64,000 bases of DNA from Nitrosarchaeum sp. (GTDB taxonomy: Archaea; Thermoproteota; Nitrososphaeria; Nitrososphaerales; Nitrosopumilaceae). A program made the position numbers and the translations under genes. The stretch spans positions 1 to 64,000 of the forward strand of contig NSIR01000004.1 of NCBI GenBank assembly GCA_002737445.1. The letters run 5' to 3'. Under the pieces are notes generated by a model. That model worked only from the letters and a program-made list of their open reading frames with translations. It was not told the origin of the DNA and made no database searches. Of the stretch, positions 7,446 through 13,313 are shown in pieces; the first letter of the stretch is position 1, and each line of letters opens with the position of its first letter.

Positions 7446-9254
7446 TTGACATTATCTGAATCTGTTAACTCTAACCCAATTTCTTCCAAATCTAAAATAA
7501 ATTGGGGAAAAATGGAGGAGGCTGAAGACTTTGCAGCGACTGTAAAATTATACCGTCAGGGAAAATTCGATGAAGATAGTTTTAGACGATATAGATTACA
7601 ACATGGCGCATATGGCACAAGAATGACTAATGATTATGCTATGGTTCGTATCAAATTACCTGCAGGTGAAGTTTACCCATATCAACTTGAAAAAATATCT
7701 CAATTAAGTGAGCAATTTTCTATAGGTAGTGCTCATTTTTCTACACGAGAAAATATCCAGTTACACTGGGTCGTATTGGAAGATGTTTCAGAAATTTTAC
7801 GAGGTTTAGCTGATGTTGGTCTTACATCCCGTGAAGCATGTGGTAATTCTGTTCGAAATGTAATGTGTAGTCCTTTGTCTGGTGTTTGCCCTGATGAGGA
7901 ATTTGATTCTACTCCATATGCTCTTGCTACAGCTAGATTTTTCCTGAGAAATCCGTTATCTCAAAGTCTTCCAAGAAAATTTAAATTTAATTTTACATGT
8001 TGTGAAAAACATGGAATGGTGAGAATGGTGGATGTTGGATTAATTTCACAAACTAGGGATTTAGATGGTTCAACTCAAAAAGGATTTAAAATTTTTCTTG
8101 GTGGTGGGTTGGGTAACAAATCTTTTGTTGGTCATCAATTGGAAGAATTTACTCCTGAGGAAGATCTTTTGTATACTTCCATTGCAGTGATTAGAATTTT
8201 TGATAGATTAGGTGATCGAAAAAATATGGCACGAAATAGAATGCGATATCTTGTTAATGATATGGGGTGGGAAAAATTTCGTAATCTTGTTCTTAAAGAA
8301 AGAGCCATTGTACGTGCAACTCAATCAGTTGTCACTCGTCTTGATGTAGATCATGCTCCAAACCTGATAAAACGACCTATTCAAATATCTGATGAAAGTG
8401 GTGGATCTATTCCAGAAGGATATGCACGATGGATTAAAACAAGCACTCTAAAACAAAAACAATCCGAATATCATTCAGTATTCATAACACTTGAGGCAGG
8501 AGACATAACCTCAAATCAGTTAATTTCACTAGCTAGCATAATTCAAGAATTTTCATCAGAAGGTAATGCTAGAACTGGATTTATACAAAATATCGCAATA
8601 CGTTATGTTCATGAAGAAGACTTGCCAAGACTATATTCCAAATTACTTGGGGTAGGGTTGGCAAAATCCGGCTCTCTTACTATGGCTGCACCTGTTGGTT
8701 GTTCTGGAACTACCTCTTGTAATTTAGCTTTGACCAACTCCCATAGATTGGCAAAGGAAATTCAAAGAAAATTCCTTGAACTCAAATTAGATCAAGATGA
8801 TGATTTATCTGATTCATCCATCAAGATAAGTGGGTGTCCTAACGCATGTGCCCAACATGGAATTGCAACAATTGGCTTTTTTGGTGGAGGAGGAAGAGTT
8901 GGAAAAGAAATGTATCCAAACTATCAAATGTCATTAGGTGGTCGTTCTGATGGCGAGACAACACTTGGTTCTACTTGTCATAGAATTCCTGCAAAAAGAG
9001 TAATTCCGGTAATTTTAAAAATAATTGAATTATTCAAGGAAAATAAAAAATCCAACGATACTCTAAAAGATTGGCTTCATAGAATTATAAATGGTAAGGA
9101 AGACACTGCAATAAAATCAATGCATGATATGAAAATCGCTTTGGATTTTTTAACAATTCCTCCTACTAAAGAGGAAGATCCGGATTTTTACAATGACTAT
9201 GGAAGTGATTCAAGTTATCATACAAAAACTGGAAAAGGTGAATGTGCAGCATGA
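7446..9254 (+). CDS. Siroheme- and [4Fe-4S]-containing sulfite/nitrite reductase
   Basis: A 602-residue protein of the ferredoxin-dependent assimilatory type. It has two half-domains with the siroheme-contact motif STRENIQLHW near residue 99, then the cluster cysteines in GCSGTTSC near residue 420 and SGCPNACAQHG near residue 461, giving the Cys-x5-Cys and Cys-x3-Cys pattern. It catalyses six-electron reduction of sulfite or nitrite. The gene overlaps a rhodanese gene and lies in a sulfur-rich neighbourhood, which favours sulfite, but the sequence alone cannot settle the substrate. It starts at a TTG at 7446. Confidence 0.85.
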   Translation: MTLSESVNSNPISSKSKINWGKMEEAEDFAATVKLYRQGKFDEDSFRRYRLQHGAYGTRMTNDYAMVRIKLPAGEVYPYQLEKISQLSEQFSIGSAHFSTRENIQLHWVVLEDVSEILRGLADVGLTSREACGNSVRNVMCSPLSGVCPDEEFDSTPYALATARFFLRNPLSQSLPRKFKFNFTCCEKHGMVRMVDVGLISQTRDLDGSTQKGFKIFLGGGLGNKSFVGHQLEEFTPEEDLLYTSIAVIRIFDRLGDRKNMARNRMRYLVNDMGWEKFRNLVLKERAIVRATQSVVTRLDVDHAPNLIKRPIQISDESGGSIPEGYARWIKTSTLKQKQSEYHSVFITLEAGDITSNQLISLASIIQEFSSEGNARTGFIQNIAIRYVHEEDLPRLYSKLLGVGLAKSGSLTMAAPVGCSGTTSCNLALTNSHRLAKEIQRKFLELKLDQDDDLSDSSIKISGCPNACAQHGIATIGFFGGGGRVGKEMYPNYQMSLGGRSDGETTLGSTCHRIPAKRVIPVILKIIELFKENKKSNDTLKDWLHRIINGKEDTAIKSMHDMKIALDFLTIPPTKEEDPDFYNDYGSDSSYHTKTGKGECAA

Positions 9255-11177: not shown

Positions 11178-11530
11178 TAGCTCAATCTTTCTATTATCTA
11201 GATAAATACCATACTGAATAGAATTTACTATGTGTTATCTTTAATGACTGACTTAAAATTTTACTTTAAAATCACTATCATAATTTGATTTTATCTAATG
11301 TCTGATAGATCTTGTAATATTTTATTTTACCAGTATTTTTAATTTTATTTCTGCATTTCTAACTTTTGTAATACTGTTAATTCATAAAAGTGTCTAAATT
11401 TAAGAATATTTTTTATTTTATCCTCTTTTGAATATTGCCTTTTTACCATTTTTGAGGCTAATTTTGATCTAGAAAAAAATGAATGATTTTGCACCAAATA
11501 TAGAAATACTTGATATCCCCACAATCGATT
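11178..11530. other. Divergent intergenic region
   Basis: About 350 bases between the divergent TPR and collagen-like genes. It is very AT-rich with runs of T, has no open frame of note and no clear hairpin. It should hold the promoters of both genes, but no single TATA box stands out. Confidence 0.5.
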
Positions 11531-13006
11531 ATGTCCAATCGCGAAAGATTAGAAATTCATGGCAAATCCCCATTTACACAATCTGGTATCTATGAGGTTG
11601 AAATCTTTATTTCTGATTCAAAACCTACTCCTGATAAAATTAAAAACAAAAAATTTCCTTCTTTATGGAAAGGACATTTTCATCTTAGAGTTAAAGATGG
11701 ATTATTTACAGAGACACTTGGGTCTGATGTTAACCCAATACCCTCTTCTGTCTACGACCTTGATAATGCTTGGATTATAGTAGTTGATTTATTTTCTTCA
11801 TTGCATTCTATTTTTAATGTCTTTTTTGAAAAATCATCAGATGAAAATAAATCTGAAAATATATCTAAAACTAAATTATCAAAACAAGCAGGTACTGTAA
11901 AAACAAATCCTGATTCTTTCAAGCCTTATGGGTATGGTGGTCCACAAGGTGACAAAGGTTCAACTGGCCCCCACGGCATATCTGGCGACAAAGGTCCACA
12001 AGGTGACAAAGGTTCATCTGGCGACAAAGGTTTACCTGGCATTCAGGGAGTTCCTGGTGACAAAGGCGACAAAGGTCCACAAGGTGACAAAGGTACACTT
12101 GGAGAAAAAGGAATTACTGGTGACAAAGGCGATAAAGGTGACAAAGGCATTTCAGGTCCACCTGGTGACAAAGGTGACAAAGGACTTACAGGTTCATCTG
12201 GCGATAAAGGTCCAGATGGATTAAGAGGTCCACTTGGCCCACAAGGTGACAAAGGACTTACAGGTTCATCTGGTGATAAAGGTCAAATTGGTTTACGTGG
12301 AGTTCCTGGTGACAAAGGCGATAAAGGTCCACAAGGTGTAGTAGGCGATAAAGGCATAACTGGTCCTGCTGGTTCATCTGGTGATAAAGGTCCAACTGGA
12401 CAATATGGTATTCAAGGTGACAAAGGATTACAAGGTCCATCCGGAGAAAAAGGTCCACAAGGGCCACTTGGTCTTTTAGGTGATAGGGGTCCAAGAGGTC
12501 CTGAAGGTCCATTAGGTGATAAAGGTCCACAAGGCCCACAAGGCCCTGCTGGCGCAAAAGGATTGACTGGTGTGCCTGGTCCAGAAGGTGAAAAAGGAGA
12601 AAAAGGTCCTCTTGGATTACAAGGCGACAAAGGACTTACTGGTCAATTAGGTCCATTAGGCGATAAAGGTCCACAAGGTCCACAAGGTCCACAAGGTGAA
12701 CGAGGTTTATCCGGTCCATCCGGAGAAAAAGGATCTCAGGGTCCACAAGGAATTCAAGGCACACAAGGTGAACGAGGTCCAACAGGTCCATTTGGTCCAC
12801 ATGGTGAAACTGGTCCAACAGGAGAACAGGGGCCTATCGGATCTATGGGTCCAAGAGGTCCGCCTGGTCCACCTGGAGAAAAAGGTTTAGCTGGTGGAAT
12901 GTCTATGGAGCAAAAAGCACTATTCAAAGATCTTTTAGAAATTTTGATTAATAAAAATATCATTAGCACTGAAGAACAAATTAAATTAATGAGTTATCTT
13001 TACTAA
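11531..13006 (+). CDS. Collagen-like protein
   Basis: 491 residues from the ATG at 11531; a TTG at 11510 would add 7. Three parts are visible. Residues 1-105 form a beta-rich head with [20 protein letters not shown] and [12 protein letters not shown], which resembles the head domain preceding repeats or tail-fibre domains in bacterial surface proteins. Residues 137-454 are 106 uninterrupted Gly-X-Y triplets dominated by GDK, GPQ, GEK and GLT. Residues 455-491 are a helical end ([18 protein letters not shown]) that could act as a trimerisation foot. There is no signal peptide, no membrane segment and no Cys. The Lys-Gly-Asp pattern provides inter-chain salt bridges known to stabilise prokaryotic collagens without hydroxyproline. 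Role unknown. Confidence 0.88.
11939..12892 (+). repeat. Gly-X-Y coding repeat, 106 triplets
   Basis: A 9-base periodic region built from GGT-N3-N3, with frequent ggtgacaaaggt and ggtccacaaggt units. It is not made of long identical units, so it has drifted while keeping every Gly. It generates spurious long frames on both strands, which are left out. Confidence 0.9.
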
Positions 13007-13028
13007 TGATAAAAAGTGTGAATTATCG

Positions 13029-13313
13029 ATGACTGAAACCCCCGAAAAAATAGAATTTAAAATGTTGGATTACAAACGTATTGAAAATGATTTTGTATCA
13101 TTTGAATTAGAAGACGGTACAATTGTAAAAGTGAAAGTTGATTTAGATAGAGTGGGTAAGGCTCTTAATTTTCAAAATCCTGACGGCACTCCACACTATG
13201 CGATTAACACTTCTGTAAAGTTATCTATCACTCCACCTGACAAGAAATTCACCGTACAAAAAAATAATTTAAAAGAAAAGAATTCACAACCCCCAGATCA
13301 AATGTTTAGCTAA
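13029..13313 (+). CDS. Small uncharacterised protein next to the collagen-like gene
   Basis: 94 residues starting at ATG 13029, 22 bases after the collagen-like stop, so probably co-transcribed. Residues 10-75 look like a small beta-barrel (DFVSFELEDGTIVKVKVDLD and NTSVKLSITPPDKKF), followed by a Lys/Asn/Gln-rich tail. No family is recognised. The tight spacing suggests it works with the collagen-like protein. Confidence 0.6.
   Translation: MTETPEKIEFKMLDYKRIENDFVSFELEDGTIVKVKVDLDRVGKALNFQNPDGTPHYAINTSVKLSITPPDKKFTVQKNNLKEKNSQPPDQMFS

Follow-up and report, generated by a model that had tools for sequence, protein, structure and literature searches.

A long collagen-like protein with a fixed-register C-terminal module in the Nitrosopumilaceae, the product of a core gene and predicted to be cytosolic

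Most known prokaryotic collagen-like proteins are extracellular, or occur in phage or spore structures. The streptococcal collagen-like proteins Scl1 and Scl2 (NCBIfam NF038330 and NF038329) share with the protein described here a long charged Gly-X-Y tract, the lack of hydroxyproline and non-collagenous flanks. They are, however, exported and LPXTG-anchored and carry an N-terminal trimerising domain, whereas our protein has no signal peptide or LPXTG motif; its head and foot are unrelated to theirs, and the likeness is essentially that of the tract. The E. coli prophage proteins EPclA-D form a trimeric collagen rod with two capping domains, a dumbbell in which the C-terminal cap trimerises (PMC3368898). 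A collagen rod between two caps is also the predicted layout of our protein; EPclA-D are phage-borne side-tail fibres with PfN/PfC domains, whereas ours is encoded by a core gene of an archaeal chromosome and its caps are unrelated to these.

Closer in taxonomy, secreted collagen-like proteins of ammonia-oxidising archaea (AOA) from the same class also carry Gly-X-Y repeats (Nitrososphaeraceae-type family f3: L184-L188 and L190; Nitrosopumilaceae: L200, L201 and L204), but they have signal peptides, different ends and a patchy distribution, and are not orthologous to ours. One of them, L200 (genome G076, C1:1250000-1262500, minus strand; genus g17, Nitrosopumilaceae), is of giant size, starts with a signal peptide and runs through 559 Gly-x-x triplets without interruption. 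Four genomes of the Nitrososphaeraceae-type genus g24 (G189, G195, G199 and G207) hold a separate secreted set of several collagen-like proteins (L184-L193), most of them with signal peptides. A highly expressed archaeal collagen-like protein from another phylum is described as a cell-surface protein, and is set beside ours by that description only.

The window analysed here is a stretch of 64,000 nucleotides from Nitrosarchaeum sp., a small-genome ammonia oxidiser of the Nitrosopumilaceae, on a contig belonging to a 1.19 Mb genome that is 99% complete. Its collagen gene (ORF 11531-13006, + strand, with the ATG at 11531 and the stop codon ending at 13006) encodes a 491-residue product, the parts of which are listed in Table 1 together with the neighbouring elements.

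Table 1. Features of the collagen gene and its surroundings, in window coordinates
Feature	Position	Strand	Basis or remark
TATA-like core promoter element AAATAYARAAATAC	11496..11509	+	21 nt upstream of start codon
N-terminal head, residues 1-99, compact, beta-sandwich-like	11531..11827	+	alignment of 35 heads, AlphaFold2
Head-tract linker, residues 100-133, low-complexity, probably disordered	11828..11929	+	pLDDT, variability between genera
Collagen-like tract, residues 134-457, 108 uninterrupted Gly-X-Y triplets	11930..12901	+	Pfam, repeat count, dN/dS
Fixed-register motif in tract, family consensus GPQGIQGPQGER, residues 404-415	12740..12775	+	27 aligned orthologues
GPP-rich clamp adjoining foot, residues 440-451, candidate nucleation site	12848..12883	+	34 orthologues
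C-terminal foot, 34 aa, and stop codon	12902..13006	+	conservation, dN/dS
P2, 94-aa downstream neighbour	13029..13313	+	starts 22 bases past collagen stop

The tract is the longest perfect (Gly-X-X)n run of the protein, and a run of this length is not attainable by chance. The 106 perfect triplets counted in the preliminary description are the same tract less its edge triplets, the opening GYG and the closing GGM. It matches the Pfam Collagen model PF01391 with E = 3e-52 and 174.6 bits against a cut-off of 27.2, which identifies it as a collagen repeat. GDK occurs 23 times and GEK six times, and lysine plus arginine (37) balance aspartate plus glutamate (37) to a net charge of 0. If wholly triple-helical, at 0.286 nm per residue, the tract would be about 93 nm long. 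Against NF038329 and NF038330 the protein scores below the cut-offs (236 against 325 bits for the best-scoring named model, and 185 against 400), as do nine further orthologues.

Invariant positions in the alignment of 35 heads are G11, P14, E22, P32, W46, L52, F59, G64, P69, P71, D86 and S89. An AlphaFold2 monomer model of residues 1-119 has six strands, with a pLDDT of ~93-97 over residues 11-100, in keeping with the beta-rich head proposed from a first reading of the sequence; between residues 102 and 113 the pLDDT falls below 50, in a linker whose length and sequence differ between genera. The same reading had likened the head to those of bacterial surface proteins, a resemblance for which no support was found. 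Sequence and profile searches of Pfam, PDB, PHROG and NCBIfam gave no match for the head, none of its relatives was found in viral contigs, phages or plasmids (plasmid chance matches lay at E 7), and a fold search against the PDB and viral models gave no significant match. The top fold match, the ligand-binding region of the adhesin SgrA from Enterococcus faecium (PDB 5fce), has an E-value of 0.11, below significance, a TM-score of 0.48-0.50 and 10% identity.

The architecture is strongly maintained among relatives. From 57 complete reading frames, which collapse to 50 distinct orthologous proteins, the tract is unbroken in 49, with 68-185 triplets and most commonly 122-124 (~105 nm). The sole exception is L071 (single-contig genome G006, ORF starting at 7898), where a frameshift inside the tract may reflect either true decay or a fault of the assembly. 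L069, L079 and L088 only seem interrupted, since their assemblies contain runs of N at these places. Loss of the glycine periodicity through frameshifts in homologues, which the preliminary description had named as evidence that would speak against it, is thus not seen in 49 of the 50 orthologues. Selection on all three parts is purifying: in 12 close pairs, dN/dS is 0.10-0.32 for the head, 0.03-0.21 for the tract and 0-0.10 for the foot.

The foot is the most conserved part of the protein, with a mean column identity of 76% when taken with the last triplets, and its terminus (...L..S.LY) is invariant. It has no match in Pfam or the PDB and is probably a helical hairpin. Conservation without gaps extends from the foot into the last ~40 triplets, when these are counted from the C-terminal end; the block means here are 0.78, 0.53, 0.81, 0.60, 0.66, 0.47, 0.65 and 0.68, where shuffling gives 0.35 on average and 0.43 at most. 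Across the last ~45 triplets the conservation of register is 0.44-0.81 per block, and at the N-terminal end of the tract it is 0.31-0.46. In nearly all of 27 orthologues from ~20 genera, the GPQGIQGPQGER motif lies at a constant distance from the C-terminal GPPGPP, the order toward the C-terminus being the GPQGIQGPQGER core, more triplets, the GPP-rich clamp, three triplets and the foot. Within the clamp, each GPP is kept in 33 of 34 orthologues and GPR in 31 of 34, and the density of GPP, counted per ten triplets, is 2.3 over the final ten compared with 0.6 elsewhere. Even L069, from a 0.8 Mb genome, retains GPQGIQGPQG and a recognisable foot. The simplest reading of the fixed register would be that the C-terminal end serves for nucleation and docking and that the rest of the tract above it is a spacer.

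To the eye, the GPQGIQGPQGER motif looks like the site cut by interstitial collagenase in animal collagens, a likeness that is probably coincidental. L069 and L102 (genomes G004 and G026; 0.8 Mb, genus g5) encode a divergent version of the protein in which a long insert separates the head from the tract; the foot of L069 has diverged as well.

Separate searches with head and foot, as suggested in the preliminary description, found both to be confined to the Nitrosopumilaceae. The head is present, in one copy each, in 127 of 151 genomes of the family, in 91 of the 96 of good quality, in all 22 genera and in every one of the 24 single-contig genomes. Searches recovered no head outside the family among 150 genomes of the class or, with a profile, among 300 of the phylum, and in the 150 class genomes the foot profile matched the Nitrosopumilaceae only, two weak chance matches inside the family included. 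A scan of GTDB contigs returned 102 relatives, and the 80 that were kept carry Nitrosopumilaceae or thaumarchaeal or unresolved archaeal titles. One family genome lacking the head (G108) has foot and tract on a contig, and three draft genomes in which no part of the gene was found (G148, G203 and G223) have either assembly gaps or losses.

Gene order around the locus was compared in 40 stretches from the 22 genera and shows minor changes only: Thi4, sulfite/nitrite reductase, rhodanese, a divergent TPR gene, the collagen gene, P2 where present, a DRG GTPase, HAD and ArgS. In families f3 and f5, TPR and P2 face each other with no collagen gene between them. This synteny, together with the unoccupied TPR-P2 site in the sister families, dates the gain to the base of the Nitrosopumilaceae, where the collagen gene came to lie between TPR and P2. 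The gene belongs to the core set that the family has inherited vertically, an aspect overlooked in the first reading, as was the fixed register of the C-terminal part of the tract.

By the same comparison P2 is older at the locus than the collagen gene. Families f2, f3 and f5 have P2 but not the collagen gene, and most Nitrosopumilus have the collagen gene but have lost P2, so that P2 is not an obligate partner and the partnership proposed for this 94-residue product is not borne out by co-occurrence. A structure model of P2 has a low pTM of 0.47, and a fold search with it gave no match. RNA folding over the gap between the collagen stop codon and P2 showed nothing notable (z -2).

Upstream of the gene, the TATA-like box is kept 5' of the start codon at 30 of 40 orthologous loci, and AAATAYARAAATAC is the sole perfect match in both window and genome. 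Special conservation of this promoter was considered and dropped: the boxes of the neighbouring nirA (32 of 35) and TPR (27 of 37) genes are equally conserved, and the collagen promoter is therefore ordinary. With only 21 nt between the box and the start codon, the transcript may well be leaderless.

That the protein lacks a signal peptide, as noted at first reading, holds for all 50 distinct orthologues, none of which has a signal peptide, a Tat motif or an LPXTG motif. The 15-residue hydropathy maximum over the first 50 residues averages 0.51 among orthologues and is 1.30 at its highest, whereas secreted collagens from this class reach 1.88-3.37. Several genera have a stop just one codon 5' of the collagen start, which rules out a longer N-terminus in those genera. 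Other collagens examined in these archaea mostly have clear signal peptides, showing that these organisms can export collagens in the normal way; set against such signal-bearing relatives, the lack of an export signal makes the cytosol the best prediction for the site of this protein.

The main alternative is a surface fibre exported by an unrecognised route, with the foot anchored at the membrane or S-layer and the head outermost. In its favour, a surface location is the usual one for collagen-like proteins of prokaryotes, the head has diverged more rapidly than the remaining protein, and the top-scoring NCBI models are surface adhesins. Proteomics of low-salt Nitrosopumilaceae also records an ‘LPXTG-anchored collagen-like adhesin’, expressed at low salinity in ‘Ca. 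N. chungbukensis’ MY2 (PMC13037477); this may be the same gene as ours, but our orthologues score under the NCBIfam cut-offs and these genomes also encode secreted collagens. However, the NCBIfam scores that point to adhesins rest mainly on the Gly-X-Y tract and stay below the cut-offs in the ten orthologues tested, and a surface site fits poorly with the missing Sec, Tat and LPXTG signals in a class whose other collagens carry ordinary signal peptides. We consider surface display unlikely, while giving it appreciable weight.

The explanation that we favour, with modest confidence, is a cytosolic homotrimeric collagen-like fibre with a C-terminal nucleation and docking module, which would work inside the cell as a tether or scaffold. 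A head-collagen-foot layout had been recognised from the outset; the repeat count and the AlphaFold2 head confirm it, and a trimeric fibre is its natural reading. In such a fibre, three chains would join at the C-terminal foot, nucleate at the GPP-rich clamp beside it and zip toward the N-terminus, giving a rod that would measure 93 nm in this protein and ~75-107 nm in most members, with three beta heads on flexible linkers at the opposite end. The conserved C-terminal module would dock to a putative cellular partner, the N-terminal part of the tract would be a spacer of freer length, and the protein as a whole may act as the tether or scaffold. The faster divergence of the head than of the foot would fit a surface-exposed part too.

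As to what such a fibre might do, the least unlikely of the specific guesses is that it contributes to cell architecture. The Nitrosopumilaceae group is rod-shaped in its cultivated members and Nitrososphaerales, the relatives without this collagen, are irregular cocci (PMC4129164), and archaeal rod shape elsewhere accompanies crenactin or MreB (PMC7613921); in 16 Nitrosarchaeum genomes the actin family gave one weak match. The link between rod shape and collagen is weak, because this confounded phylogenetic co-occurrence counts as a single event. Nitrosopumilus maritimus has been studied by cryo-tomography, and the text of that paper is silent on filaments and fibres (PMC11082331), though single triple helices, ~1.5 nm thick, would be hard to see. 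An intracellular collagen cytoskeleton, in which a cytosolic triple-helical rod docks through its C-terminal module to another filament or the membrane and so contributes to the rod shape of archaea with essentially no actin/MreB homologue, is a quite doubtful proposal; to our knowledge no earlier prokaryotic collagen acts as an internal structural element, and a cytoskeleton of this kind, if true, would be the first.

The tract might instead form no triple helix and be disordered, a hydrophilic, zwitterionic spacer or crowding agent that might, for instance, help the cell to adapt to osmotic change. Its composition is compatible with this, with a near-zero net charge in most members, ~21-27% charged residues and 28 G(D/E)(K/R) triplets per 100, and a collagen-like protein is induced by low salt in a relative (PMC13037477). 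A disordered spacer, however, would not require glycine at every third residue, and the strict periodicity, which tolerates no break in tracts of up to 185 triplets, counts against it, as do the GPP-rich C-terminal clamp and the fixed-register motif; we regard it as improbable. Still less credible is a domesticated or active viral tail-fibre gene, for while phage tail fibres likewise join capping domains to a collagen tract (PMC3368898), this gene sits at a fixed chromosomal locus amid housekeeping genes in all genera compared, without phage-type neighbours, relatives in viral contigs or phages, a significant viral fold match or a meaningful PHROG match.

Nitrosopumilaceae are among the most abundant marine archaea. 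A single-copy repeat of 200-560 residues that is kept even in streamlined 1.2 Mb genomes is costly and must do something, and if cytosolic it would be an exception among collagens, which as a rule lie outside the cell or form parts of virions and spores. The fixed-register C-terminal module offers a defined candidate binding site, through which the structural system becomes testable. The family is undescribed in the literature that we searched on collagen in Nitrosopumilus, Nitrosopelagicus, thaumarchaea and ammonia oxidisers.

Two further repeat-bearing sequences were seen. Elsewhere in the window, positions 18-878 hold tandem repeats of 15 bases, AATCTTACTGGGGCA being one example of the unit, which suggest a pentapeptide-repeat protein. 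In another genome (G134), the locus L203 (C57:3500-9500) encodes a DnaK/Hsp70 whose C-terminal tail is made of GAEGQQ repeats and contains 18 Gly-x-x triplets.
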